Assembly: GCA_016928975.1 (NCBI GenBank)
Contig: JAFGJR010000300.1
Location: 1-64,000, forward strand
DNA length: 64,000 nucleotides
From: Sedimentisphaerales bacterium
Lineage (GTDB): Bacteria > Planctomycetota > Phycisphaerae > Sedimentisphaerales > SG8-4
Direction: 5' to 3'
Positions 1-32,725 of the stretch are shown one piece after another (position 1 is the first letter of the stretch; each line of letters opens with the position of its first letter). The position numbers were made by a program, and so were the translations under genes. Under the pieces are notes generated by a model that made no database searches, had not been told where the DNA came from, and saw only the letters and a program-made list of their open reading frames with translations.

Positions 1-525
1 CCGGCTCGGCCGACCTGATCCCTGGTTTTGCCCCAGAAACACGGGTCGAAACCTGACTTCGGGACTTTTGTCGTAGGCGTCTTGTTTGGCGCCCTCGCCC
101 GCGCTGGTAGTGACGCCGTTAGGCGGTTCCTCTTGTAGAGACGCAAAATCTTGCGTCTCTACAGAAGACATGGCGGGCACACTGCAAACAGCCTCCATCC
201 GGTCAATTGGCTTTGTTTCGCACACCGGGTGATCGACCATGTAGCCCAGCCGCCCTCGGCTGGGGTCACCCCCGGGGGCGGGGGTGCTACTTGACACTTC
301 CCCAATTGGCTTTGTTTCGCACGGCGGGTCAGCATCGGCTCCACTTGACACTTCACACTTCGAACTTGACACTTCCTCCCATTGGCTTTGTTTCACGGCC
401 TCCTGCTCCCGGCGGAGCCGGTGCAGCTCGTTGTAGCTGCGATACAGGCTGCTCTCAATCCATCGCGGCCCGCTGGACTTCTGCGCGTTGAGACGATTGG
501 CGGTGACCTGTGCTTCGGTCGTCAT
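1..525 (-). CDS. Partial hypothetical protein of repeat-rich planctomycete type, runs off left edge
   Basis: Minus-strand frame starting at ATG 525-523 and open for 175 codons to the window edge, so the 3' end is outside. A strong AAGGAGG Shine-Dalgarno (complement of 534-540) lies 8 nt upstream. Residues 8-21 read TANRLNAQKSSGPR, which I recall from memory as the opening of a widespread planctomycete hypothetical-protein family. Right after it the protein jumps to WIESSLYRSYNELHRLR, which resembles the C-terminal region of that family, so an internal deletion is likely. The rest is low-complexity and built from repeats: CETKPI occurs twice and a diverged KQSQW once (from the 20-base repeat at 204-223, 303-322 and 381-394), plus EVSSS-type segments and a 30-base palindrome read as VETQDFASL. 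No function can be given. It may be a decaying relic despite the intact start. Confidence 0.55.
   Translation of the reverse strand, partial: MTTEAQVTANRLNAQKSSGPRWIESSLYRSYNELHRLRREQEAVKQSQWEEVSSSKCEVSSGADADPPCETKPIGEVSSSTPAPGGDPSRGRLGYMVDHPVCETKPIDRMEAVCSVPAMSSVETQDFASLQEEPPNGVTTSAGEGAKQDAYDKSPEVRFRPVFLGQNQGSGRPSR
134..163. repeat. 30-bp perfect palindrome (GTAGAGACGCAA family), copy 1
   Basis: Thirteen-base arms TGTAGAGACGCAA / TTGCGTCTCTACA around a four-base loop. An almost identical copy is at 38497-38525 inside the GH2 gene. Both copies are read in frame by the host reading frame as VETQ..ASL. Confidence 0.85.
204..394. repeat. Three direct copies of CAATTGGCTTTGTTTCGCAC
   Basis: Copies at 204-223 and 303-322 are identical over 20 bases; a third, shorter and diverged copy is at 381-394. 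CTTGACACTTC segments recur between them. On the minus strand they encode the CETKPI / KQSQW peptides of the edge protein. They are spaced about 80-100 bp apart with unrelated spacers, so this is not a CRISPR array. Confidence 0.8.
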
Positions 526-559
526 GGGCGATACCTCCTTACATGGATGATTGATAGGT

Positions 560-736
560 GGACTTCTGCAAAATGGACATTGGGCCTACTTTGGGAAGGA
601 GAAATCTTGTCTTTCGATTTTTCCTTCCTAAACCTCAACCACCGTCCAGATAAGGAGTTACGTTGATCCTTCAAGGAAATCAAAGAATGAGATTTCCTTG
701 AAGAATATAGGCCCAATGTCCATTTTGCAGAAGTCC
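560..736 (-). mobile_element. Two-hairpin inverted-repeat element, copy A
   Basis: Perfect 28-bp terminal inverted repeats lie at 560-587 and 709-736 (starting GGACTTCTGCAAAATG). Inside are two further hairpins: one around 591-632 (GGGAAGGAGAAATC arm) and one around 669-704 (CTTCAAGGAAATC arm). Copy B at 10726-10903 has the same termini and the same two hairpins in the opposite orientation. There is no coding capacity, so this looks like a non-autonomous MITE/REPIN-like element. No clear target-site duplication was recognised. Confidence 0.8.
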
Positions 737-935
737 AGTGACAATTGATGGTTGGCAGGCCGGCCGGTCTCACGGCGCACTCCCGCCGGACGAAAATGGT
801 CCAACGACCATATAATAGAGACGCTCCAGGGGGCGAAATGTTGCAGAGAATTCTGTTACATACTGACAAGACTCGCAAGTGCTTCTGGCGTAGAGACTTG
901 GCGGCTATGCTGGTGTCCGGAAGCCCAGCCAGGGA

Positions 936-1029
936 CTGGGGTGCCATGCCTACGCTCGCGCAGGCATGGTTCATCGATGGGACAAGGCATGCTTACGCGA
1001 AATGCGTAAGCATGGCACCCGCTCCCCAG
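936..1029. repeat. Cloverleaf palindromic repeat, copy 1
   Basis: The outer arms (CTGGGGTGCCATG at 936-948 and its interrupted complement at 1011-1029) enclose two hairpins, 944-969 and 988-1014. The second hairpin has 11-bp arms CATGCTTACGC / GCGTAAGCATG. A related element with the same arms is at 36021-36110. REP/REPIN-like. Confidence 0.7.
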
Positions 1030-1045
1030 ACTCCATCCGCAACAT

Positions 1046-1098
1046 TTGACAGCACCCCGGCCGTCAATGCCAATAATGAATAATGAAGACGTGACCCT
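1046..1098 (-). repeat. RAYT-unit left end, inverted relic
   Basis: The sequence 1072-1098 (AATAATGAATAATGAAGACG and onward) preceded by CCGGCCGTCAATGCC is the reverse complement of the 2966-3020 segment just upstream of the transposase start relic at 3034. It therefore marks the left end of another, lost copy in the opposite orientation. Confidence 0.55.
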
Positions 1099-1141
1099 AC
1101 TTCCCCAAATGACAAATAAGTATTATGTCCCCGGAAATCCC

Positions 1142-1225
1142 GAAATCCTGCGTCACGCGGCTCAGGATCGCCAACTCGCCAAGGACCTCGACCGCCTGCG
1201 ACGCACGCTGCAAAATAATGAATAA
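1142..1225 (+). pseudogene. RAYT transposase C-terminal relic 1
   Basis: Frame encoding EILRHAAQDRQLAKDLDRL and ending LQNNE-stop (TAA 1223-1225). It is almost identical to the C-terminal 28 residues of the longer relic at 1321-1518. Only the very end of the gene survives, followed directly by the terminal repeat at 1214-1240, which overlaps the stop codon. Confidence 0.6.
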
Positions 1226-1240
1226 TGAAGACGTGACCCC
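1214..1240 (+). repeat. RAYT-unit right terminal repeat, copy 1
   Basis: A 27-base repeat beginning AATAATGAATAATGAAGACG and ending in CCCC. It carries the last codons (N-N-E) and the stop of the transposase relic. Confidence 0.7.
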
Positions 1241-1255
1241 CCTTACCCCCTGCAA

Positions 1256-1282
1256 AATAATGAATAATGAAGACGTGACCCC
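1256..1282 (+). repeat. RAYT-unit right terminal repeat, copy 2
   Basis: A second copy of the 27-base end, 42 bases after the first and preceded by only CTGCAA of transposase sequence. This is a small tandem duplication of the element end. Confidence 0.7.
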
Positions 1283-1320
1283 CCTTACCCGCCCCCCTTT
1301 ACCCTGACCCCCTTTACCCT

Positions 1321-1518
1321 TTACTCCGGGATGTGGCCATCTGCCTGGTGCGGGAGTTCAGCGGCCTGCGATGGCGGGACCTCGGAGGCCATTTTGGCGG
1401 CATCGGCGGCTCAGCTGTGACGATGCGCTGCCGCGAAATCCTGCGTCACGCGGCTCAGGATCGCCCACTCGCCAAGGACCTCGACCGCTTGCGACGCAGG
1501 CTGCAAAATAATGAATAA
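1321..1518 (+). pseudogene. RAYT (REP-associated Y1-type) transposase C-terminal relic 2
   Basis: Open frame of 65 codons ending TAA 1516-1518. It reads LLRDVAICLVREFSGLRWRD, then LGGHFGGIGGSAVTM, then the EILRHAAQDR..NNE tail. The RE-x-SGL...L-x-x-HFGG..GSAV pattern is the helix-turn-helix-like C-terminal segment of long RAYT-type transposases related to IS200/IS605 TnpA. The N-terminal HUH catalytic domain is missing; an N-terminal piece occurs separately at 3034-3164. Upstream (1283-1320) is C/T-rich repeat sequence. A GTG at 1333 could act as a start, but nothing supports expression. Confidence 0.65.
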
Positions 1519-1531
1519 TGAAGACGTGACC
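1507..1531 (+). repeat. RAYT-unit right terminal repeat, copy 3
   Basis: Same end sequence as 1214-1240, again overlapping the last codons and stop of a transposase relic. It is the last end before the restriction gene at 1719. Confidence 0.7.
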
Positions 1532-1718
1532 TCCTTTACACTTTACACCCTATCAGGAAACCGTATAATACATAGTTGGGGGAAGGAGAACACGAGGAAC
1601 AGAGCGCAACGCGTCCAGATTGCACGGAAGGCGATCCTTTGAGTCAGTAATGGTGTGAATCGCCTGACTTCGTGGTCTCACAAGTTAGCTGTGAGGCGCA
1701 TTTGACGGGGCTGCTGAG

Positions 1719-2942
1719 GTGAGCGTACGACGCATTAGGCAGAATGTGCCTGTCCGTCTGGGGAACGTCCGCATTCATGAGCGCCGACTGCTGGACCGGC
1801 TCGCAGACCTACGGCGGGCAATTAGAGCTTGGGCCAAACGCCGTGACTTGTGGTACGACGCGGGGTTTCATGTGCCGTTCGTCTGGAACGGGGACCGTCC
1901 GGAGAGGGGAGACGTCCTCTACTTCTATTTTGAGGGGCCCCTTTACCATCTCTTCAACTATGCGTCTGGCCCTGAGTACGAACGGCGGGTGGCGGAGTTT
2001 GGGAGGATCCTCGAAGAGCGTGGATTCTGGTACGACTACCTCTACCACTACATGATCACCATCCTTCCCTCCGACGACAAGTCCATCGATGAGTACTTCG
2101 CCCTCTATCGTTGGCAGTGGTTGCAGCACCTTGCGCAGAAACGTTTGACTGATATCCACAGCGAGGTGTTCGACTACGTTGAGGAGCACCCCGAGGCCCT
2201 AGCGCGTCTAAGTTGGCGGCAGTACGAAGAAGTGCTCGACTCTATTTTCAAGAATCAAGGCTACTACACGGAACTCGGCCCAGGGACAAACGACGGTGGT
2301 GTCGACATCCGCCTCTATCAGAACTCAGCGATTCCTGAGCTTGTCACCGTTGTCCAGGCCAAACGCTACACAAGTCGCCCCATCGGGCTAGATGCGGTGG
2401 CTGCGCTGCTGGGGGTCGCTGTTGAGCAGAGAGCTGAGCGCGGAATTCTCGCCACGACTTCCCGATTTCAGCCGAAGGCCCAGAGATTCGCTAAGAGTAC
2501 GCAAAGCCGGATTGATCTCCCCTCCATCGAACTCGCTGATGCAAAGCGGGTGTCGGGCTGGTGCGCGGATATTGCCAAGGTGCTTGACGGCTATTTCTTA
2601 GGGAATTCGACTGAGCCGCCGCCTCTCGTCGCGAACGCGCCCTCCACCGAGTTGACCGGTAAGGTGCTGGTGGCACATGGTGGATACGAGATTATCGCGA
2701 ACTTCTTCGGTGTCGTGGAGGTGGACTTCCCTCATGAGGTAATTGTGAAAGAGATCGCGAGCAAGCGGCTGGACCCGTATAACAGTGGATATGAGGTGCC
2801 AGCCCCTGCGATACCGTGCGCGGGCAAACGTTTCGTTGCGTTCAAGCACACGGCTAACGATGGTTCGGTCAGCTACTGGGGAAACGGTCAACTCTACTCG
2901 CTTTGGGATGGCACTCGTCAGTGGTTTGACCACAACGACTAA
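1719..2942 (+). CDS. Orphan Mrr-like restriction endonuclease
   Basis: 407 residues from a GTG start with only a weak upstream Shine-Dalgarno. The middle of the protein (about 165-280) matches the Mrr catalytic domain of the PD-(D/E)XK nuclease fold: YEEVLDSIFKNQGYYTELG, then D192-GG-V-D196 and Q213-A-K215-RY as the Asp...Gln-x-Lys active site. Residues 1-160 form an aromatic-rich domain (YFYFEGPLYHLFNY, FWYDYLYHYM) that I do not recognise, and 300-407 is another unassigned domain. Family knowledge: Mrr-type enzymes cut modified DNA or act as orphan or antiphage nucleases. No methyltransferase or specificity subunit is adjacent. The gene is bounded on both sides by transposase-unit ends (1507-1531 and 2966-2992), which suggests acquisition by transfer. 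Confidence 0.8.
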   Translation: MSVRRIRQNVPVRLGNVRIHERRLLDRLADLRRAIRAWAKRRDLWYDAGFHVPFVWNGDRPERGDVLYFYFEGPLYHLFNYASGPEYERRVAEFGRILEERGFWYDYLYHYMITILPSDDKSIDEYFALYRWQWLQHLAQKRLTDIHSEVFDYVEEHPEALARLSWRQYEEVLDSIFKNQGYYTELGPGTNDGGVDIRLYQNSAIPELVTVVQAKRYTSRPIGLDAVAALLGVAVEQRAERGILATTSRFQPKAQRFAKSTQSRIDLPSIELADAKRVSGWCADIAKVLDGYFLGNSTEPPPLVANAPSTELTGKVLVAHGGYEIIANFFGVVEVDFPHEVIVKEIASKRLDPYNSGYEVPAPAIPCAGKRFVAFKHTANDGSVSYWGNGQLYSLWDGTRQWFDHND

Positions 2943-2965
2943 GAAGGGGAGCAAGGGGGGAGCAA

Positions 2966-2992
2966 GGGGTCACGTCTTCATTATTCATTATT
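2966..2992 (-). repeat. RAYT-unit left terminal repeat
   Basis: Reverse complement of the right-end repeat (27/27 against 1214-1240). It sits 42 bases upstream of the transposase start relic at 3034, so the transposase unit is bounded by inverted repeats. Confidence 0.75.
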
Positions 2993-3033
2993 GGTATTGA
3001 CGACGGAGGCCGGGAGGGGTATACAATGGAGGG

Positions 3034-3164
3034 ATGGCCAGAGCCTTGCGGATCGAATATGCGAGTGCGTTCTATCATGTGCTCACTGTCTGATGAGCAA
3101 TCACTACCACCTGATCCTCGGCGGCTTTGGCCGCACTATCAAGGAGCTCAGCGTCTATTCTTGA
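3034..3164 (+). pseudogene. RAYT transposase N-terminal relic, internally deleted
   Basis: The ATG at 3034 follows a typical leader (GTATACAATGGAGGG). It encodes MARALRIEYASAFYHVLTV, the conserved opening of RAYT/IS200-like transposases, then a stop at 3091-3093. From 3090 another phase reads LMSNHYHLILGG, the HUH (His-x-His) block that normally lies some tens of residues further on. The interval between the opening and the HUH block has been deleted and the rest of the gene is absent. The frame ends at TGA 3162-3164. Confidence 0.7.
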
Positions 3165-3200
3165 GCATCTTCGCGTTTTGTTGAGTGTCTTCGTGGCGAT

Positions 3201-3224
3201 GGGGCAACCACAGGGGGTTGCCCC
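3201..3224. repeat. Short GGGGCAACC hairpin
   Basis: Nine-base arms GGGGCAACC / GGTTGCCCC around ACAGGG. Intergenic, with no U-tract after it, so probably a REP-type repeat rather than a terminator. Confidence 0.5.
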
Positions 3225-3328
3225 TACGAGCGGCGAAGGGCCGCGTGAACGCGGGACTCCCGCGAAGAACCGCACGTAGTGTCCCCCCTGAATGTGGCTA
3301 TCGCGACACGGTAGCCAGTCTGCCCCCA

Positions 3329-3401
3329 TGTCATTCCCGCGCAGGCGGGAATCCAGTCACCCACCGAATGGTTCTGGACCCCCGCCTGCGCGGGGGTGAC
3401 A
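3329..3401. repeat. Inverted repeat of the CCCGCGCAGGCGGG type
   Basis: Imperfect arms of about 29 bp at 3329-3357 and 3373-3401 (TGTCATTCCCGCGCAGGCGG and complement) enclose a 15-base spacer. This kind of palindrome is common between genes in many bacteria. One copy is seen here. Confidence 0.7.
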
Positions 3402-3537
3402 TAACAGGACTCGTTCCGCTTTGTGCCTTCAAGCGGGACGTTGACAGGGGAAGGGGCGGGGCCTACACTCGGTCCACCGTTGGCTGCATGCGTGACCGAT
3501 GAGTGATATGCATTGCGATTGAGTATTTCGTATCTAT

Positions 3538-3617
3538 GGGTGGCAGCGGCAAGCGCAGCTTGCCGATGGTCTGCCCATTCGCCATCGGCAAGCCCTTCGG
3601 CCTTGCCGCTGCCACCC
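3538..3617. repeat. 80-bp palindromic repeat (GGCAGCGGCAAG family), copy 1
   Basis: The outer arms GGGTGGCAGCGGCAAG / CTTGCCGCTGCCACCC enclose inner CTTGCCGATGG / CCATCGGCAAG arms. An inverted second copy is at 36180-36261. Located about 75 bp upstream of the symporter start. Confidence 0.8.
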
Positions 3618-3692
3618 GAGCTTGACGGACTATGAAAAACTCATGTGTAACCGGTATGACACGCAGTGCGACGGCTGTGGAAGGGGCACGGC

Positions 3693-5570
3693 ATGAGTGA
3701 GTGGCACGCCATCGCATCATCGGTTCTGGGCGCCGGCAGCGTCGCGATTGGAAACGTTGATCTCATCGTCATCGTAGCGTATTTCAGCGTGATCCTCGGT
3801 CTGGGCGTCTGGGCGGGGCTCAAACGTCGCGGCGGGACCGAGAGCGCGGGGTACTTCCTGGCCGGCGGGTCGCTGACCTGGCCGTTGATTGGGATGGCTC
3901 TGTTCTCCACGAACATTTCCACGATCCACTTGGTCAGTCAGGCCCAGGAAGGCTACGTGAACGGCCTGGCCTACGGCAACTTCGAGTGGATGGCGCCGTT
4001 TCTGCTGATCACCTTGTCACTGTTCTTCGCCCCGTTCTACTTTCGGTCGAAGGTCGCGACGTTACCGGACTTTCTGGAGCGGCGGTACAGCCGGGCCTGT
4101 CGCGACTGGCTGGCGGCTATGTCCATCATCTCCGCCATCGTCATCCACATCGGCTTTACCCTCTACACCGGCGCCGTCGTGCTGGAAGAGATGTTCGGGA
4201 TCGACAAGATGACGAGCATCATCGGGGCCTCGATCGTGACGGGCATCTACACGATCGTCGGCGGCCTCCTGGCGGTCGTGCTGACGGAATCGCTCCAGAC
4301 GGTCATCCTGCTGGCCGGCGCCATTTTGATTACGCTCGTGGCGTTCACTCGGGCCGGCGGCTGGGAGGGCATCGCGACCCACGTCGATCCGGTGAAGCTG
4401 ACGGTTTTGCGCTCGGCGCAGGACCCGGCGAACCTGCCGTGGTATTCGGTCTTCTTGGGCTACCCGGTGATCGGGCTCTGGTACTGGTGCGCCGATCAGA
4501 CGATCGTGCAGCGGGTGCTCGGGGCCAAGGACGTGAACCACGCCCGCGTTGGTCCGCTGTTTGCCGGGTTCATTAAGATCCTGCCGGTCTTCATCTTCGT
4601 CCTTCCGGGCACCATCTGCCTGGCGCTGCTGAACCAGGGCAAGCTCACCGCGCTTCCGGCTGTGCAGGTCGCCGGGTCGGCGGCTGCCATACCCCAGATG
4701 TCGGATGCCGAGCGCCGGACCTATCAAGCGGTGCGTGACTACGGCGGGCAGGACGGGGTCGTTCGCGTCGATTACGTCGTGGAACAGACCGGCCTGAGCA
4801 AGCCGCAGGTGGACGTCGCGATGACGGACCTGGTCAACAAGGGCGTGCTGAAGCCCAAGTCCGACGCGGTCTACGCCCACATGATCCTGGAGCTGCTTCC
4901 TCCCGGCCTGCGAGGCATCCTTGCGGCCGCCTTGCTGGCGGCTCTCATGAGCACCGTTTCAGGCGCCTTGAATTCCATCGCCACGCTCTTCAGCTATGAT
5001 CTCTATCGCCGCTGGCGTCCGGACACGCCGGACCACAAACTCGTGATTATCGGTCGAATCGCCACGTTTGTAGCGATGATCATCGCGATCCTCTGGTCAC
5101 CCTTGGTCGGTCACTATAAGAGCATCTACCAGGGTGTGAACACGATCATTTCCTATCTTGCCCCACCGATCACGACGGTGTTCATTTGGGGCGTGTTCTG
5201 GCGGCGGGCCTCCAGCCGGGCGGCGCTGACGACATTGGTCGTCGGCTCGCTCCTGGGAATCACGGTCTTTGCTCTGGATTGGTACAAGGACTATACCGGC
5301 TGGAACGTTCAGTTCATGATGGCGGCGTTCTACCTGTTCGCGATCTGCTCGGCGGTTCTGGTGGTAGCGTCCCTGGTCTGGCCGCACCAGCATACGGCTG
5401 AGAGCGACCGGCTGGTCTGGCGAAACCCGCTGGAGGCGTTGCAGGACCGCGGCTGGCGCGGCCTGGGCAACTACAAGCTACTGGCCGGGCTGCTCTTCGC
5501 CATCATGGTCCTGCTATACGTGATCTTCGCCACGGAGGCCACGCAACGTTTCTTCGGCCTGATACGATGA
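3693..5570 (+). CDS. Sodium:solute symporter (SSS/SLC5 family), likely deoxysugar uptake
   Basis: The ATG at 3693 has an AAGGGG Shine-Dalgarno 6 nt upstream; it is preferred over an upstream GTG at 3666. About 625 residues with multiple membrane segments and typical SSS signatures: DLIVIVAYF in the first helix, the SAGYFLAGGSLTWPLIG region, and LLAALMSTVSGALNSIATL late in the protein. Unusual: between two helices there is a soluble insert of about 65 residues (MSDAERRTYQAVRDYGGQDG, then VEQTGLSKPQVDVAMTDLV) that reads like a small winged-helix. The gene overlaps the next by a few bases and is followed by a rhamnose-type mutarotase and FucU, so L-rhamnose or L-fucose import is a reasonable inference. 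The substrate is not determinable from sequence. Confidence 0.85.
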   Translation: MSEWHAIASSVLGAGSVAIGNVDLIVIVAYFSVILGLGVWAGLKRRGGTESAGYFLAGGSLTWPLIGMALFSTNISTIHLVSQAQEGYVNGLAYGNFEWMAPFLLITLSLFFAPFYFRSKVATLPDFLERRYSRACRDWLAAMSIISAIVIHIGFTLYTGAVVLEEMFGIDKMTSIIGASIVTGIYTIVGGLLAVVLTESLQTVILLAGAILITLVAFTRAGGWEGIATHVDPVKLTVLRSAQDPANLPWYSVFLGYPVIGLWYWCADQTIVQRVLGAKDVNHARVGPLFAGFIKILPVFIFVLPGTICLALLNQGKLTALPAVQVAGSAAAIPQMSDAERRTYQAVRDYGGQDGVVRVDYVVEQTGLSKPQVDVAMTDLVNKGVLKPKSDAVYAHMILELLPPGLRGILAAALLAALMSTVSGALNSIATLFSYDLYRRWRPDTPDHKLVIIGRIATFVAMIIAILWSPLVGHYKSIYQGVNTIISYLAPPITTVFIWGVFWRRASSRAALTTLVVGSLLGITVFALDWYKDYTGWNVQFMMAAFYLFAICSAVLVVASLVWPHQHTAESDRLVWRNPLEALQDRGWRGLGNYKLLAGLLFAIMVLLYVIFATEATQRFFGLIR

Positions 5571-5584
5571 TAAGGAGGCTTCAC

Positions 5585-6379
5585 ATGAGACCTGCTCGTA
5601 GGGTGGTGCTTGCCCCACCGATTCTCCTGTTTATCTTGTCCGCGCTTGCGGCGCAGGGGTGCCGGGTGGCCGGCCCAGAGCCCAGCCGGGAAGGCGCGGT
5701 GATCGGTATCCCAGGCGACGCCATCCCCGAATACAAGCGGTTGCACGCAGACACCTGGCCCGGCGTGCTCCAGGTGATCGACAGGGCGCACATTCACAAC
5801 TACTCCATCTATCTCGGCGAGGTCGCCCCAGGCCGGCACTACCTGTTCGCGTACTCCGAGTACACCGGCAAGAACCGCGAGGCCGACAAAGCCAGGATCG
5901 CCGGCGACAAGACCATGCAGGAGTGGTGGAAGCACACCGACCCGCTGCAAAGGCCCCTGCCGACGAGGAAAGAGGGCGAGTGGTGGTCCCGGTGGGAGGA
6001 GGTGTTCCACTACGCCGGTCCGGCGTACAAAGAGAGCGACGTCAAGTCGCGCCATGGCTCGATCGTCGGGCTGCGCGAGGAGGCGATTCTCGTATACACG
6101 CAGATGCACGCGGCGGTCTGGCCGGGCGTTTTGGCGGCCCTTGAAAGGGCCAACATCCGCAACTACTCGATCTACATGGGCCGGACCAAGCCCGGCGAGT
6201 ATCTGCTGTTCAGCTATTTCGAGTACATCGGCGATGACTTCAATGCCGACATGGCCCGGATGGCCGACGAGGTGACCAAGGCTTGGTGGACGTACACCGA
6301 CCCGCTCCAGCAGCGCCTGCCGGGTACGCCGGAAGGCAGCCAGTGGAAGACGATGGAAGAGGTGTTCCACACAGATTGA
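5585..6379 (+). CDS. Secreted lipoprotein with two tandem L-rhamnose mutarotase (RhaM) domains
   Basis: The ATG at 5585 is favoured by AAGGAGG 6 nt upstream (an ATG at 5567 also exists). The signal peptide ends in LSALAAQGC, a lipobox. Two homologous units follow, each with LH/MHA..WPGV, NYSIY, a LF.Y.EY segment, WW..TDPLQ..LP and EVFH. These are the hallmarks of the RhaM/L-fucose-mutarotase family that interconverts alpha and beta anomers of L-rhamnose; family members are normally single-domain, cytoplasmic and about 100 residues. Here the two copies are fused and exported, presumably acting at the cell surface next to the symporter encoded upstream. Whether both copies are active is unknown. 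Confidence 0.82.
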   Translation: MRPARRVVLAPPILLFILSALAAQGCRVAGPEPSREGAVIGIPGDAIPEYKRLHADTWPGVLQVIDRAHIHNYSIYLGEVAPGRHYLFAYSEYTGKNREADKARIAGDKTMQEWWKHTDPLQRPLPTRKEGEWWSRWEEVFHYAGPAYKESDVKSRHGSIVGLREEAILVYTQMHAAVWPGVLAALERANIRNYSIYMGRTKPGEYLLFSYFEYIGDDFNADMARMADEVTKAWWTYTDPLQQRLPGTPEGSQWKTMEEVFHTD

Positions 6380-6383
6380 ACGA

Positions 6384-6483
6384 CAGGTCCTATTCGTCCT
6401 ATCGGTCCTATGAGTCCTACGCCTTTCCGCAGGCGCGCGACCAGAGAGACAGGACAAATAGGACGGATAGGACTCATAGGACA
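6384..6483. repeat. Inverted repeat of TCCTATNNG units
   Basis: The left arm (6384-6420) consists of tandem TCCTAT/TCCTAC units; the right arm (6448-6483) is the complementary AGGAC-AATAGGACGG-type series. It fills the spacer between the mutarotase and fucU. Related elements are at 57764-57850 and, more diverged, 56477-56558. Confidence 0.75.
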
Positions 6484-6516
6484 CAATAGCCGCACTGATT
6501 CAAAGGAGCTTGTGCC

Positions 6517-6942
6517 ATGCTCAAGAACGTACCGTCGATCTTGTCGCCGGAGCTGATGAAGACCCTGCTGGAGATGGGTCACGGGGATGAAATCGTCCTG
6601 GCGGACGGGAACTTTCCAGCCGCCAGCGTGGCACGGAGGCTGATCCGATGCGACGGTCACGGCGTGCCCGAATTGCTGGAGGCTGTCCTGAAGTTCCTGC
6701 CGCTGGACGTCTACGTGGATCGCCCGGTCGCTCTGATGGCGGTTGTCCCCGGCGACAAGACGAAACCGACCATCTGGGAGCAGTACCGCACGATCGTCAA
6801 AGACAGCGGCGAGCGGTTCTCGGACTTTGAGTTCGTCGAGCGATTCGCCTTCTACGAGCGAGCGAAACGGGCCTACGCCGTCGTCGCCACCGGCGAAAAG
6901 GCCCTTTACGCCAATATCATCCTCAAGAAGGGCGTTCTCTGA
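6517..6942 (+). CDS. fucU: L-fucose mutarotase FucU (RbsD/FucU family)
   Basis: 141 residues, the usual family length, preceded by AAAGGAG. Recognised by the N-terminal SPELMKTLLEMGHGDEIVLAD (HGD catalytic region), FPAASVA, and the conserved tail FYERAKRAYAVVATGE with a C-terminal NIILKKGV. FucU/RbsD proteins catalyse anomer conversion of fucose or ribose. It is the third gene of the symporter/mutarotase unit and the cytoplasmic counterpart of the exported RhaM-type protein. Fucose versus rhamnose preference is inferred from family resemblance only. Confidence 0.85.
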   Translation: MLKNVPSILSPELMKTLLEMGHGDEIVLADGNFPAASVARRLIRCDGHGVPELLEAVLKFLPLDVYVDRPVALMAVVPGDKTKPTIWEQYRTIVKDSGERFSDFEFVERFAFYERAKRAYAVVATGEKALYANIILKKGVL

Positions 6943-7378
6943 CGGCTGTGGATCGTCGTGCGGCACCTTGACCGGCAATGGCAATTCGCAAGGCCGACCG
7001 GACGCGAGCCATGGTCCGAGAGGCGCCTGTCAGAGCGAAAGCCGCAGTCCGAGTCGTCCCATAATCTGCGGATAAAGGCTTGACACACCTGGGGGCCTGG
7101 GGTAGAATCGGTGCTTTGGTGAAGGATTGCCTCCGTTGCGGGTGCCGGGGGGAGTCTCGATCCGGCCGGTGGGTATCCTTTTCCGCCTCATCGCGGCAAA
7201 AAGAGGGTAAATACATCGCACAGGAAGTGCCGAAAATAAGGGAACAGCTTTCGGGGCACGCGCGTCTATGTCTGTGGGTCTGACGATTGACGGTGAGCCG
7301 CGTGCTTGTGCGCATGGCGCCGCGGACAGGCGGATTCTGCCGGGCAGGGCGAGATAACAACTGATTAGGAGCCGTACA
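6943..7378. other. 436-bp intergenic region with a sigma70-type promoter
   Basis: No gene is seen. It holds the promoter at 7080-7108 and then a leader of about 260 nt before the first pseudopilin gene. The leader has several GC-rich pairings, but I recognise no known riboswitch. Confidence 0.5.
7080..7108 (+). promoter_or_regulatory. Sigma70-like promoter TTGACA-17-TAGAAT
   Basis: TTGACA 7080-7085, 17-base spacer, TAGAAT 7103-7108. It points at the pseudopilin cluster and implies an unusually long leader of about 260 nt. Confidence 0.6.
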
Positions 7379-8236
7379 ATGGGTAGACGACGGGGTTTCA
7401 CACTGATCGAGTTGCTGGTGGTCATTGCGATCATCGCACTGCTGATGTCCATCTTGATGCCCGCGTTAGGGCGGGTGAGGAAGCAGGCGAGGACGACCGC
7501 CTGCCTGGCACAGCTCAAACAGTGGGGCCTGGCGTTCTCCCTGTATTGCCAGGACAACGACGGATACTTCTTCACTGGCGAGGTCCAGGGGGCCCGCGGC
7601 TCGGTCACCGCTACGATCGATGGCGTGACGAAGTCCTGGGGTACCGGGTCCGGCGGATTCTGGCGACTCGTCATGGCGCCATATTCCAAAGACAAGAGGA
7701 TGTGGTGCTGTCCGCAAGCGGTCAGGCCAATGCCCACTGGGGGAACGATTCCACAGGGCGGATGGTCATATTTTGCATGGACAGTCGATGGCACGGTGGG
7801 CAGCTACGGGCTCAACGGCTGGATCTTGAACATCAAGGCCTCCCAGCAGGCAGGCAACCGGACAAACGGATGGGGCCGTGCCGACAACGGCCGGCATTGG
7901 GGTGCTCCTCCCACGCAGTACAGCAACCAGGTGCCTGTGTTTACCGGCAGTTGGTGGGTGGATTCCTGGCCGCTCGAGACGGACCAGCCTCCGCAACTCG
8001 AGAGCGGACCAGGCGACACGCCGGGAACCAACGAGATGAACCGCGTGTGTGTCAATCGGCACGACGGCTTCGTCAGCTCCCTCTTTTGTGATTGGACCGT
8101 CCGCAAGGTCGGGCTCAAGGAGCTGTGGATGCTCAAATGGCATAAGACCTATAATACTCGCGGGGTCTGGACGAAGGCAGGCGGCGCGGATCCGTCCGAC
8201 TGGCCCGAGTGGATGGGTCGGTTCAAGGATTATTGA
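7379..8236 (+). CDS. Pseudopilin-type secreted protein 1
   Basis: 285 residues; TAGGAG 7 nt before the ATG. A short basic leader (MGRRRG) precedes the class III signal [19 protein letters not shown] with the prepilin peptidase site G/F and Glu at +5. A long C-terminal globular part follows. Planctomycetes encode very many such proteins, thought to be type II secretion or pilus-like surface proteins of unknown individual role. It is the first of three tandem paralogues with near-identical leaders. Its C-terminal half differs from the next two and lacks their HGDGT motif (it has [11 protein letters not shown] in the equivalent place). Confidence 0.8.
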
Positions 8237-8330
8237 CAATAGCAGACGCCCGTCCAAGCGTTCGCCGGCTTAGCGACGTCTTGAACGATGTTCAGGTGCT
8301 GTTGTTGAGCGTGTGTATTAGGAGTAGTTC

Positions 8331-9194
8331 ATGAACAGGGGCACAAGAGGCTTTACGTTGATCGAATTGCTTGTGGTGATCGCCATCATCGCGATTCTGA
8401 TGGGCATCTTGATGCCGGCGCTGCAACGAGCCCGCGAGCAGGGCCAGCGAGCGGTCTGCATGGGCACTCTCAAGCAGTTGACGCTCTGCTGGATCATGTA
8501 CGCGGACGCCAACGATGACAGACTTGTCAACGGAGAGGCGGGAATCTCCTATACTGGTCGTGGAGCGATACACGCTGGAGAACCCGAATGGGTCGGCCGG
8601 TGCTGGCGGGAGCCGTACAACTCGGCAACCGGGACACAATGGCCTATCGAGGGCGGCAACGGCCAGAAAGCCGCCATCATGGGGGGCTCCTTGTGGAGCT
8701 ACACGCAGAGTCTCGGCATGTATGCCTGCCCGACCGGCATTCGCGGCGAGCTGCTGACGTATAACCTTATGGACGGCGTCAACGGCATGCCGAGAACAGG
8801 GACGCACAATAACGGCGTGCCCACAATGGGACCCAACGGCAAGAAACTCTGGGTTAAGAAGCGCAACGAGATCAGCCAGCCGACGTACAGACTGGCCTTC
8901 ATCGACGAAGGCGCGTCGACCCCCGACAGCTTTGCGGTGAATTGGCAGAGCAGCGTCACCATGTGGTGGGATGACCCGCCGACCCGTCATGGAGACGGCA
9001 CCGTCGTGTCGTTCGCCGACGGCCACGTCGAGCACCACAAGTGGAAGGCCGCGCAGACAATCGACTACGGGAGAACGTATGCCAATTACAAAGGGCCCGG
9101 CTTTGCCGCCTCCACGCCGGATGAATTGAATGACATAGAGTTCATTCACAAGGGCTGCTGGGGTCAGACGCATTCCAGCTTCCCGAGCTATTGA
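8331..9194 (+). CDS. Pseudopilin-type secreted protein 2
   Basis: 287 residues; TAGGAG 6 nt before the ATG. N-terminal [20 protein letters not shown] signal with conserved Glu, then [20 protein letters not shown] and a globular part containing CPTG, FIDEG and [20 protein letters not shown] near the C-terminus. The last motif corresponds to the His-x-Asp-Gly tail typical of planctomycete pseudopilin-like proteins. Closely related to the next gene over its whole length. Confidence 0.82.
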
Positions 9195-9340
9195 GTGTTC
9201 GATGCGTTGATGGCGATGGCAAAAGCGGATGCAGCATTACAGAGATCGGTGAAAGACAGCTCAGATCTTCAGGTGTCGGCTGGGCCGTGTTATGACCCAA
9301 GTTGGGTGCTGTCGCAGAGCTTGTTGTTAGGAGTGGTATC

Positions 9341-10228
9341 ATGAACAGAAGCAGAAGGGGTTTTACGCTGATCGAACTGTTGGTCGTGATCGCAATCATT
9401 GCGCTCTTGATGGGGATTCTGATGCCGGCGTTGAACCGGGCGCGGGAGCAGGGCCGTCGGGCCGTCTGCCAGGGCAACCTCAAGACCCTCACCCTCGGCT
9501 GGCTCATGTACGCCGACGAGAACGATAATAGGATCGTCAATGGCGCCGGCGGCTTCCATTACATGACGGGGGGCGGCATGACGAACAACGGCGCCGAGCC
9601 CACGATCGTCGAGCGGGCCTGGGTCGGCAAAGGTTGGCAGGATGACTATGCCAGCCCCACCTCGATCAACCGCACGACCAACGAGCGAGACCAGAAGCTG
9701 GCCATTCACCAGGGGGCGTTGTGGCCGGCCGTCAACAACGAGGGTTGCTACAAGTGCCCGACCGGCCGTCAGGCCGAGTTCATCACGTACTCGGTGGTCG
9801 ATGCGATGAACGGCCTGTATCGAACGGGCACCGCGACGGGGAGCAACCATCTGACTGCCGTGGGCACCCGTGTGGGCAAGACCGTCTTGTGGATCAAGAA
9901 AAGGACCGAGATTGTCAGTCCCGGCCCGGCGGAGCGCATGGTGTTCATCGACGAAGGGGCGATGACGCCGGACAGCTACGCGGTGAACTATCCGACCGGC
10001 CCATGGTGGGATAACCCGCCGGTTCGTCACGGCGACGGCACGACGGTCTCGTGGGCCGATGGACACGTCCAGCACCTCAAGTGGAGTGCCTCCGAGACGA
10101 TCGAGTTTGGGCGTGATCACCGCGACTACTACGGCGGAGGCAACTTCTCGCCGCAGACCCAGGAAGGCAAGATCGAGTTGAGGGACTTTCGCAAATGGGT
10201 CTGGGGCAAGGCCGGCGATCAGATATAG
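9341..10228 (+). CDS. Pseudopilin-type secreted protein 3
   Basis: The ATG at 9341 (TAGGAG 7 nt upstream) gives 295 residues and places the basic leader MNRSRR directly before [20 protein letters not shown]; an upstream GTG at 9302 would spoil the prepilin leader. Shares [49 protein letters not shown] and [20 protein letters not shown] with protein 2, so the pair arose by tandem duplication. Likely exported and processed by a prepilin peptidase. Confidence 0.82.
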
Positions 10229-10258
10229 CTCCGGTCGTTTCCCTGTAGATTGAGCACG

Positions 10259-10294
10259 CAGGCACGGTCCCCTGGATTGTGCCTGTTTGTTTTG
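10259..10294 (+). terminator. Possible intrinsic terminator after pseudopilin cluster
   Basis: Seven-base arms CAGGCAC / GTGCCTG with a 13-base loop, followed by TTTGTTTT. It lies 31 bases after the last pseudopilin stop. Confidence 0.45.
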
Positions 10295-10335
10295 AGGGAA
10301 TCGAAGCGGTCAAGCGGGTCGCTGAAATCGGCCTG

Positions 10336-10533
10336 CTAACCGTTGGAATGGCAGGTGAGCACGACCGCCAGGAGGATATGCCGGAGGCGGTCCAGACTGA
10401 TCGTATCGAGGTAGTCGTCCGTGAAGTCGAGCTTGCGGGACCCCTGAAAGCCCTGGATTCGCGTCTTCACCTCGTCCCTGCTCAGCGTGGCGATGAGGGC
10501 TGCGGTGCGCTCGAAGTAGTTGCACGAGTCCAC
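10336..10533 (-). CDS. Small conserved-looking protein, possibly N-terminally truncated
   Basis: Minus-strand frame with a GTG start at 10533 gives 65 residues. The frame stays open a further 11 codons upstream (to a TGA) without an ATG. The sequence is protein-like, with CNYFERTAALIATLSRDEV and LDFTDDYLDTISLDRLRHIL, which I recall as resembling short planctomycete hypothetical proteins ending in a LRHILLA helix. No Shine-Dalgarno is visible at the GTG. Function unknown. It may be a remnant, since the expected start is missing. Confidence 0.45.
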   Translation of the reverse strand: MDSCNYFERTAALIATLSRDEVKTRIQGFQGSRKLDFTDDYLDTISLDRLRHILLAVVLTCHSNG

Positions 10534-10725
10534 GATCCTGGTCTCTCGAAGGAACGATTCTCGTCACCGGCCGCACGATCCACGCGTGCAGCCGCATCAT
10601 GGCTATCGACGGGAGCGCCCGTATGCTTGCGTGAAAACGCAGGCACGCGCGACAATCCCCGGAATTGGCCTATTATTGGGCGCGAAAATTTTTGTTCTCG
10701 GCGCGGGCGTCTGATAAATAGGGGT

Positions 10726-10903
10726 GGACTTCTGCAAAATGCACGTTGGGCCTATATTCTTCAAGGAAATCCTATTCTTCGATTTCCTTGAAGAATTGGC
10801 GCCGGGGAGTCGTCTGTGCTACAGTTGCAGTTTGGGAAGGAGAAATCGAGAAACGAGATTTCTCCTTCCCAAAGTAGGCCCAATGTGCATTTTGCAGAAG
10901 TCC
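10726..10903 (+). mobile_element. Two-hairpin inverted-repeat element, copy B, abutting queA
   Basis: 28-bp terminal inverted repeats at 10726-10753 and 10876-10903 match those of copy A apart from a few bases. The left and right arms differ from each other at one position (GCACG versus GCACA). Internal hairpins: 10756-10797 (TTCTTCAAGGAAATC arm) and 10831-10873 (TTTGGGAAGGAGAAATC arm). The right terminus ends 5 bases before the queA ATG at 10909, so the element is the leader of that gene and supplies any ribosome-binding sequence. Confidence 0.8.
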
Positions 10904-10908
10904 AACCC

Positions 10909-11961
10909 ATGAACACAGATCAGCTTGATTATCAGTTGCCGTCCGAGTTGATCGCGCAGGATCCCGTTGAGGTGCGCAGTGAATCGCGCCTGCTGGTGCT
11001 GGATCGGGCGACACGCCAGTTGACCGACTCGCGGTTCAGCCGGCTGGGCGATTTCCTGCGCCCCGACGACTGTCTTGTGCTCAACGATACGCGCGTGCTG
11101 CCGGCGCGATTCTTCGCCCATCGTCAGACGGGGGGCCGGCTGGAGGGTTTGTTCCTGGGGACCGCCGCGATGCCGGAGGTCTGGCAGGTGTTGCTCAAAG
11201 GCCAGCGCCGAGTCAAAGCCGGCGAGCACATCTGGCTCCAGAGCCGCGATGGGTGCGACTACTGCGAAGCCCAGGTGCTCGCCAAGGAGCCCGAAGGAGT
11301 CTGCTCGCTGGCTGTGCGAGGAAGGACGAATCCTGAAGCCGTGCTGAACGAGGTGGGCTTCCCTCCGCTGCCGCCCTACATTCATCGTGACCGCGATCCG
11401 GACAAGGCGAGCGCCGACCGGGAGCGATACCAGACAGTGTACGCGCGGCATTCGGGAGCGGTCGCGGCTCCGACGGCCGGCCTGCACTTCACCGAGGCGC
11501 TGATCCGGCACCTTCGAGAGCAGGGGGTGCGCTTCGCCCGTGTCACCCTGCACGTCGGCGCCGGGACCTTCAAGCCGATTGCCACGGATCGTGTTGAGGA
11601 CCATCCCATTCACCGCGAGTCGTATCGCGTTGATGAGGAAAACGCGGCGATCATCAACAAGGCCCGCGACGACGGCGGGCGCATCGTCGCCGTCGGCACG
11701 ACCACCGTACGGACACTGGAGACCGTCGCGGCCGGCGACCGGATCGCGGCTCGCGCCGGCACGACGGATTTGTTCCTCACGCCCGGCTCTCCGTTCCAGA
11801 TCGTCAATGCGATGATTACCAATTTCCACCTTCCAAAGTCCACGTTGCTCGCGCTGGTGGCCGCCTTCGCCGGCCTGGAGGAGATCCACCGGGCCTATCG
11901 CCACGCGATCGAGCAGCGATACCGCTTCTACTCCTACGGCGACGCCATGCTGATCCTCTGA
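10909..11961 (+). CDS. queA: S-adenosylmethionine:tRNA ribosyltransferase-isomerase
   Basis: 350 residues, the normal QueA length. The enzyme transfers and isomerises the ribosyl part of SAM onto preQ1 in tRNA during queuosine synthesis, in the cytoplasm. Family blocks visible: the opening LDYQLPSELIAQDP, LNDTRVLPARFF, GAVAAPTAGLHFT, HVGAGTFKPI and the C-terminal TNFHLPKSTLLALVAAF. The ATG at 10909 is chosen because upstream in-frame codons belong to the inverted-repeat element. No clear Shine-Dalgarno is seen between the element and the ATG, which is odd for an essential-type modification gene. No other queuosine gene is adjacent. Confidence 0.93.
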   Translation: MNTDQLDYQLPSELIAQDPVEVRSESRLLVLDRATRQLTDSRFSRLGDFLRPDDCLVLNDTRVLPARFFAHRQTGGRLEGLFLGTAAMPEVWQVLLKGQRRVKAGEHIWLQSRDGCDYCEAQVLAKEPEGVCSLAVRGRTNPEAVLNEVGFPPLPPYIHRDRDPDKASADRERYQTVYARHSGAVAAPTAGLHFTEALIRHLREQGVRFARVTLHVGAGTFKPIATDRVEDHPIHRESYRVDEENAAIINKARDDGGRIVAVGTTTVRTLETVAAGDRIAARAGTTDLFLTPGSPFQIVNAMITNFHLPKSTLLALVAAFAGLEEIHRAYRHAIEQRYRFYSYGDAMLIL

Positions 11962-32170: not shown

Positions 32171-32616
32171 AGGGTCGGTCGGGCGGTCGCCGGTCGCGAA
32201 AGCGGCTGGAGGAAAGTCCGAGCAGGGCAGGGCACGGTGGTGGCTAACGGCCACCGGGGGCAACCCCAGGGACAGTGCCACAGAAAACACACGGCCGATG
32301 GCCCTTCGGGGCTCAGGCAAAGGTGAAATGGTGCGGTAAGAGCGCACCGCGGCGGCGGCGACGTCGCCGGCAGGGAAAACCCCACCGCCTGCAAGACCAA
32401 GCAGCCGGTCAGCGAAAGGGGTTCCCCGAACGCCCAGATTCGCGTTTGGGGGCCCCGAGCCGCACTCGGCCCGGGTGCGAGCGGCCACGGTCGCTCGGCC
32501 GGCGGGTAGGTTGCTTCCCGCGTTGCGGGAGAGTCAGCCGGCAACGGCTGGTCCAGATAAATGATCGCCGGAACGCCCTCGTGGCGGGAACAGAACTCGG
32601 CTTACAGACCGGCCCT
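32171..32616 (+). ncRNA. rnpB: RNase P RNA (bacterial type A)
   Basis: The catalytic RNA that trims tRNA 5' ends. Conserved blocks in order: GAGGAAAGTCCGAGC (CR-I, about 32211), GGCAGGGCACGGTGGTGGCT, ACAGAAAACACACGGCCGAT (CR-II/III), GGCTCAGGCAAAGGTGAAA, GTGCGGTAAGAGCGCACCG, then GGGTAGGTTGC (L15, tRNA CCA-binding GGU) and the CR-V end AGATAAATGATCGCC. P1 is a 10-bp helix between 32171-32180 and 32607-32616, which defines the ends and a length of about 446 nt. No terminator was identified. The antisense frames over this region are not genes. Confidence 0.95.
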
Positions 32617-32725
32617 GGGATTTGCGATTTGCCATCGACGCATGGTGAGTCACCATGTATGATGGCCGCACAGCCGGCGCGTTGTGGCCGGCGACTGATT
32701 GCCAGCGACATACGGAGCACGGCCA

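Follow-up and report, generated by a model that had tools for sequence, protein, structure and literature searches.

The 64,000-nt stretch analysed here (the window; contig JAFGJR010000300.1 of a Sedimentisphaerales bacterium) carries two copies, A and B, of a palindromic element of about 180 bp. A sequence-only reading of this DNA had described two oppositely oriented copies with inverted-repeat ends and two internal hairpins, and this description is borne out, with each copy being 1–2 nt longer than first given and the ends extending over 30 bp. Copy A occupies 559–737 (179 nt) and copy B 10725–10904 (180 nt) on the opposite strand; in both, 30-bp terminal inverted repeats enclose two internal hairpins with 9-nt loops, separated by a spacer of approximately 35 nt. 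The ends of copy A (559–588 and 708–737) are 100% complementary over 30 bp. The predicted fold of the two window copies (−103.0 and −103.7 kcal/mol) is a cloverleaf consisting of the outer stem, a 17-bp hairpin and a second hairpin of 13 bp in copy A or 16 bp in copy B. A 17-mer motif taken from the ends matches the window four times at up to 3 mismatches, each time at an end of A or B, compared to a mean of 0.06 and a largest value of 1 in 100 shuffles. The features of the two copies and of the reading frames beside them are as follows:

559..737, + strand: copy A, complete element, 179 nt (sequence comparison, fold)
559..588, + strand: copy A, left terminal inverted repeat, 30 bp, 100% complementary to 708–737
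590..632, + strand: copy A, hairpin 1, 17-bp stem, 9-nt loop 607–615 (predicted fold)
633..668, + strand: copy A, fast-evolving spacer (fold, identity comparison)
669..703, + strand: copy A, hairpin 2, 13-bp stem, 9-nt loop 682–690 (predicted fold)
708..737, + strand: copy A, right terminal inverted repeat (complementarity)
10725..10904, − strand: copy B, complete element, 180 nt (sequence comparison, fold)
10875..10904, − strand: copy B, terminal inverted repeat at the hairpin-1 end (complementarity, fold)
10831..10873, − strand: copy B, hairpin 1, 17-bp stem, loop 10848–10856 (predicted fold)
10797..10830, − strand: copy B, spacer (predicted fold)
10756..10796, − strand: copy B, hairpin 2, 16-bp stem, loop 10772–10780 (predicted fold)
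10725..10754, − strand: copy B, terminal inverted repeat at the hairpin-2 end (complementarity, fold)
10909..11961, + strand: reading frame which, from its protein sequence, we take to be queA-like; ATG 4 nt past the end of copy B
1..525, − strand: reading frame starting MTTEAQVTANRLNAQKSSGPRW; ATG 525–523, 33 nt from copy A; continues beyond the window edge

In the window, each copy closely precedes the start of a reading frame and lies outside it. That no protein is encoded, as had been stated, holds to the extent that a public protein search with the element–queA frame as query found no fused protein; however, at least one frame is open from end to end through each copy, and copies in relatives lie inside genes (see below). 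An element upstream of queA was found at 0 of the 30 loci listed in other genomes, where 75/89 genomes gave a queA match.

The two copies belong to a dispersed family. An exact-pattern scan of a collection holding one genome per species (84,980 species, contigs of at least 3 kb) returned 17 stretches, spread over 6 assemblies of which five carry a planctomycete label and one a Verrucomicrobia label, and whole-genome searches gave many matches in genomes G003 and G001. The fetched loci were then searched with a profile; with full length defined as a start at or before position 25 and an end at or after position 153 of 177, this gave 140 hits, which were reduced to 118 by merging opposite-strand duplicates and to 116 by removing repeats and copies lacking 15-nt flanks. 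These 116 non-redundant full copies are distributed over the window (2) and 12 other genomes (G271 33, G003 23, G001 19, G361 14, G002 6, G005 5, G340 5, G325 3, G373 2, G224 2, G006 1 and G004 1), 10 of which belong to the class of G003 (record labelled Phycisphaerae). Most are 176–181 bp long with 30-bp ends and encode no transposase, and the hairpin-2 motif is not clear in 3/116; decayed remains also occur, namely lone ends, a one-hairpin element and mini-palindromes consisting of little but the ends. Scans of related genomes found hosts in at least 11/397 genomes of the class of G003, at least 7/89 of the family of G271 and at least 1/392 of a phylum sample (G003, G271 and the centre genome counted, respectively), all lower bounds in that 2–9 candidates were scored per genome and known hosts were missed (e.g. 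G002 and G224 in the family scan). Amongst plasmids and phages the only matches covered 11–17% of the query (E 2–7), and three viral pattern matches lacked the rest of the element. The spacer, previously held to have diverged completely, is indeed fast-evolving but not unrelated between copies: pairwise identity among G003 copies is 0.55 for the spacer and 0.86 for the stems, and across genomes 0.39 and 0.71. In place of a lone pair of copies with neither empty sites nor compensatory changes, we have 116 copies, empty orthologous sites and compensated changes in the stems.

Evidence of movement comes from the flanks. Direct repeats of 8–10 bp (at most 2 mismatches) stand exactly at the ends of 24/116 copies, whilst 300 random re-pairings of the flanks averaged 1.5 such copies and never exceeded 6. 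At zero offset the excess is highest for k=8 (z 8.6) and k=9 (z 4.7), as against k=7 (z 1.7) and k=10 (z 1.2), giving a duplication length of 8–9 bp. The duplication-bearing copies come from G003 (10), G001 (5), G271 (2), G224 (2) and G340, G361, G004, G005 and G006 (1 each), with two of the 24, L146 and L147, representing one ancestral insertion. Read by eye, the target motif is GTT(N2-3)AAC. The nearly identical copies L093 and L094 at two locations in G001 suggest recent activity in that genome. Empty sites were found as well: the purQ gene, interrupted by the element in G271, is uninterrupted in 9/9 other genomes searched, and two orthologous beta-propeller proteins (L190, L208) carry the element at different sites, each providing the empty site of the other. 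A BLAST comparison of the flanks had presented L208 and L190 as one orthologous insertion, which was rejected upon protein alignment. Dispersed copies, terminal inverted repeats, target duplications and empty sites together support assignment to the miniature inverted-repeat transposable elements (MITEs), one of the identities that the sequence-only reading had offered.

Members of the family also lie in frame within protein-coding genes of relatives, chiefly in the one genome G271 and in both orientations, a placement that the sequence-only reading had not anticipated. For PurQ, NAD synthetase, PdxB, GH127, RNase R and a beta-propeller protein, matches to the protein family flank the element or run through it; for MTHFR they lie to either side, and there is an uninterrupted relative as well. 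The clearest example is PurQ, in which the GATase_5 match falls into two stretches: in the 9 genomes without the element, alignment to the interrupted protein runs to residue 118–119 and resumes at residue 183–184, with 0–2 codons between (the PurQ of G437 has one TAG within the first part). The net difference of 63 residues fits an element of 180 bp plus a 9-bp duplication, although the duplication itself is not visible there. No second PurQ was found in G271 at E 1e-20, the other 12 matches covering the element part alone. When the element-coded part of PurQ was used as query against approximately 5.8 billion public predicted proteins, the peptide was identified in 25 of 41 candidates, at 59–90% identity and 71–100% coverage; a few of these matches are partial or disrupted, and two of the proteins, P0001 and P0011, seem to come from G271 itself. 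The carriers comprise PdxB (4), PurQ (4), PF03065 (3) and PF13531/PF12727/PF12849 (2) proteins, five without a Pfam match, and single HNH, PF26550/PF07676, PF22016, MTHFR, enolase-like, Ca-ATPase and PF00809/PF12225 proteins. One of the four PurQ carriers, P0002, joins the N-terminus of a PF17132 protein through the element to the C-terminus of PurQ on a 1.8-kb contig; it is likely an assembly chimera, or else would stem from recombination between two copies. As a separate observation, the G271 proteins L201, L203, L207 and L215 contain other repeated in-frame peptides (e.g. VRPSDLLNFSPSS, GKNTPEGGGAT and STGILPVA..QGQDAPAT), one of which occupies the site of the element in G271 MTHFR.

Some of these insertions are old enough to be shared. 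The element is found at the same site of PdxB in G271 and G437 and of GH127 in G001 and G271, and the site of G271 PurQ is also occupied in the public proteins P0004, P0009 and P0023. For PdxB, synonymous divergence (dS) is 0.05 and non-synonymous divergence (dN) 0.066 within the insert, compared to a dS of 0.54–0.70 and a dN of 0.07 in the host gene; for GH127 the insert gives a dS of 0.36 and a dN of 0.16, against 0.59–1.00 and 0.09–0.10 in the host. Synonymous sites of the insert thus change less than those of the surrounding gene, whilst no extra constraint is seen on its amino acids. Between the orthologous PdxB inserts, the stems differ at 2–4 of 120–122 sites and the unpaired positions at 10–12 of 57–59. 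Such a pattern could arise from selection on a DNA fold or from sequence exchange among copies, two genes being too few to choose between them. One reading, which we hold to be less likely than not, is that the element is still constrained as DNA inside genes: with stems that change far more slowly than the synonymous sites of the host gene and that gain paired compensating changes, the folded single strand would itself be selected, be it for transposition or for some use by the host, and the 60-residue peptide would be a by-product.

The stems themselves change in a coupled manner. Over 48 consensus pairs in 116 copies we counted 5089 Watson-Crick pairs, 151 G.T, 142 A.C, 158 other combinations and 28 gaps. 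With the alignment serving both to derive and to test the structure, 91.9% of cells are Watson-Crick and 817 are double changes, compared to 20–40% and 108–143 with slid partners, and 78.9% and 437 (maximum 465) with shuffles within genomes. In five orthologous pairs there are 12 compensated double changes when both directions are counted (0.33 expected in that double count), corresponding to 6 distinct changes against roughly 0.2 expected; 4 of these fall in L116/L212 and perhaps reflect few events, and L104/L231 and L136/L186 show no double change. Across the five pairs 64/1214 stem sites and 82/558 unpaired sites differ, with L104/L231 being a case in which stems are no slower than unpaired sites. 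To our knowledge, this coupled evolution of internal stems is stronger than in other bacterial MITEs. Since G.T and A.C mispairs are about equally frequent overall, the symmetry appears to be kept in the DNA, and the counts do not call for an RNA fold; we take the coupled changes, which show no G.U preference overall, to mean that it is at the DNA level, not the RNA level, that symmetry is either important or restored. The earlier proposal that structure is what is selected accordingly stands in part: covariation is strong and compensated changes are present, but they point to the DNA level, at which copying between arms is a competing source (see below). The two loops are roughly reverse complements of each other (90/116 copies), and in these copies loop–loop complementarity exceeds that of within-genome shuffles (4.14 vs 3.92, sd 0.10; counting G.U, 4.73 vs 4.41, sd 0.09). 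A kissing interaction between the loops was considered and set aside, as this excess would be explained by the half-units being inverted copies of each other.

Taken together, we consider it probable that A and B are non-autonomous, MITE-type mobile DNA whose copies in relatives include some in frame inside genes, and whose symmetry is a property of the DNA. The element would consist of two inverted half-units, each a 30-bp arm with a subterminal hairpin, flanking a short and weakly constrained spacer. A DDE-type transposase from another element, as candidate mobiliser, would recognise the terminal arms and insert the DNA at sites resembling GTT(N2-3)AAC, duplicating 8–9 bp. Within genes of relatives the copy then becomes an extra segment of about 60 residues, retained at the same site in two genomes in two cases; it might be tolerated as an additional surface loop with no known benefit to the host.

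Several results weigh against this interpretation. Neither window copy has a target duplication (at most 2 mismatches over 8–10 bp), 92/116 copies have none at the same threshold, L132 and L211 alone pass it among the 33 copies of G271, and none of the homology-backed in-gene copies carries one. Mobilisation in trans, as the sequence-only reading had suggested, is plausible, but the loci inspected in these fragmentary genomes yielded no transposase flanked by such ends: 0/30 PF01609 loci have matching ends (33 matches in 7 genomes), and among PF00872 loci none is convincing, 1/13 having a single end hit with 4 mismatches. The solo ends examined in G003 and G001 for an autonomous partner are internally deleted copies, or ends that border on other sequence and lack a partner. 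Regarding the coding copies, frames open for at least 40 residues on both sides were counted without a chance control (37/116 copies overall and 21/33 in G271; at 80 residues or more, 27/116 and 18/33). The number of open frames out of six exceeds that of shuffles in G271 (2.06 vs 0.39) and also in G003 (1.43 vs 0.18), yet G003 has no homology-backed in-gene copy; for these reasons we rely on homology, and the homology-backed genes alone are firm. Neither the peptide of the opposite orientation nor, as stated above, the element–queA frame of the window retrieved any protein. Moreover, new mispairs in the five orthologous pairs are 13 G.T and 6 A.C (counted both ways), unlike the overall equality. 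Finally, six host assemblies are metagenome-assembled genomes, and G271 apparently is one too, so that misassembly at repeats is possible.

This last point leads to the explanation that the in-gene copies are repeat-driven misassemblies. It would account for the foreign N-terminus of P0002, for the several copies that end at contig ends and for the lack of target duplications in the homology-backed genes; nevertheless, the frame is preserved on both sides in several of those genes, PdxB, GH127 and PurQ each have the element at one and the same site in more than one assembly, and the copies are full length with distinct spacers, such that we regard it as unlikely. The element could also be a structured RNA, riboswitch-like or a small RNA, whose family occupies many loci and whose cloverleaf transcript is the selected product. 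Such a reading would agree with covariation that is strong in each of the three stems, with a folding energy of around −103 kcal/mol, with the positions of the window copies 33 and 4 nt upstream of start codons and with the G.U lean of the new mispairs in orthologous pairs. An RNA helix should, however, tolerate G.U, whereas G.T and A.C are almost balanced overall, and amongst the 16 copies that we classed as coding from the reverse strand there is no such lean (A.C, which is G.U in the mRNA, 18; G.T 15; the three classed as forward give G.T 6 and A.C 3). Some copies, furthermore, carry target duplications, and some sit inside genes in both orientations. Rfam gave no match on the element either in the window, where RNase P alone reached the gathering level, or at four other loci, where three weak matches (up to E=1) lie elsewhere than over the element. 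An RNA family is hence quite improbable in our estimation.

Doubts of another kind attach to a REPIN-type element moved by a RAYT, a single-strand HUH transposase, which the sequence-only reading had named beside the MITE. The layout of two inverted hairpin half-units with a short spacer is alike, as is the rough complementarity of the two loops, but target duplications are not expected from RAYT movement and are found exactly at the ends of 24/116 copies, and the element terminates in paired arms of 30 bp, not in a short hairpin with a tag; the duplications leave the REPIN assignment, for which no search aimed at RAYT genes was made, unsupported and, to our minds, very hard to credit. The strongest competitor concerns the symmetry alone: it could derive mainly from a mutational process, template switching between the arms during replication, without selection for structure. 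Template switching can create and maintain hairpins according to PMC8794818, and it would suit the equality of G.T and A.C as well as the 6 distinct compensated changes, even if 4 of them come from one pair. Copying from arm to arm alone should not slow substitution, though, and the PdxB stems are slow with an insert dS of 0.05, an argument that is limited by L104/L231; in addition, the stem sequence itself, beyond its symmetry, is common to genomes (stems 0.71, spacer 0.39). We give this explanation a real but minor share of the likelihood.

Amongst known systems, the family resembles the Rickettsia palindromic elements in its behaviour, with no kinship being claimed. According to PMC2229807 and PMC10969869, these are palindromic, 105–146 bp long, both intergenic and in frame in unrelated conserved proteins, and give a recognisable peptide; the title of a cited reference also names protein-coding palindromes of Wolbachia. 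Judged by published description alone, the palindromic form and in-frame presence in conserved protein genes are shared; the planctomycete element differs in being longer (approximately 176–181 bp), in its two internal hairpins and 30-bp ends, in its phylum and in the target duplications of some copies, for which the Rickettsia entry in the table of PMC2229807 is "?". It is the copies in relatives' genes that share the in-frame habit and not the two window copies upstream of reading frames. The same habit is not unique, since ERIC and the 107-bp form of Correia are also described as having open frames fused in frame to genes. With the MITEs Correia, ERIC, RUP, YPAL and QMITE the family has in common that it is non-autonomous and short, with terminal inverted repeats, target duplications and a stable fold, but differs in that a parent insertion sequence was not found at the PF01609 and PF00872 loci examined. 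REPIN/RAYT systems and the GTAG/CGTC-tagged repeats (PMC3733652) likewise show two inverted hairpin units and a spacer, whereas target duplications set the planctomycete element apart. The stem-loop-replacing transposition of IS1272 (PMC5678879) is similar in its palindromic ends and palindromic targets, but its insertions described there lack the target duplications that some planctomycete copies have. In Rickettsia, in-frame repeat fusions are described as unusually frequent and a similar route in other prokaryotes as "conceivable" (PMC10969869), and the titles and abstract openings found do not name an in-frame palindromic element of planctomycetes. With its target duplications, empty sites, many in-gene copies and insertions old enough to be shared, this planctomycete family allows tests of the movement of such elements, of the tolerance of proteins for an additional 60 or so residues and of whether the DNA fold is selected. 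Unusual inserts of 60 residues in proteins of planctomycetes may, moreover, originate from mobile DNA.

A further palindrome was encountered in the window within the RNase P RNA gene (32171–32620): 37 nt at 32419–32455, GGGTTCCC...GCGTTTGGGGGCCC, resembling hairpins inserted in hairpin 2 of three element copies (L008:2029, L149:1538 and L084:964). It may be a second mobile palindrome, although a loose pattern for it matched not just the partly redundant loci (11 distinct hits, 1.28 Mb) but shuffled sequence as well (3 hits, 469 kb). Other repeats of the window include a near-identical 29-nt palindrome at 134–162 and 38497–38525 (GTAGAGACGCAA...TTGCGTCTCTAC), a GTAG/CTAC-ended repeat in two copies, and AATAATGAATAATGAAGACGTGACC repeats, both direct and inverted, at 1066–1541 and 2967–3009. 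Between the two element copies, three successive paralogous reading frames occupy 7379–10228, each opening with a segment that is presumably of the pseudopilin type.

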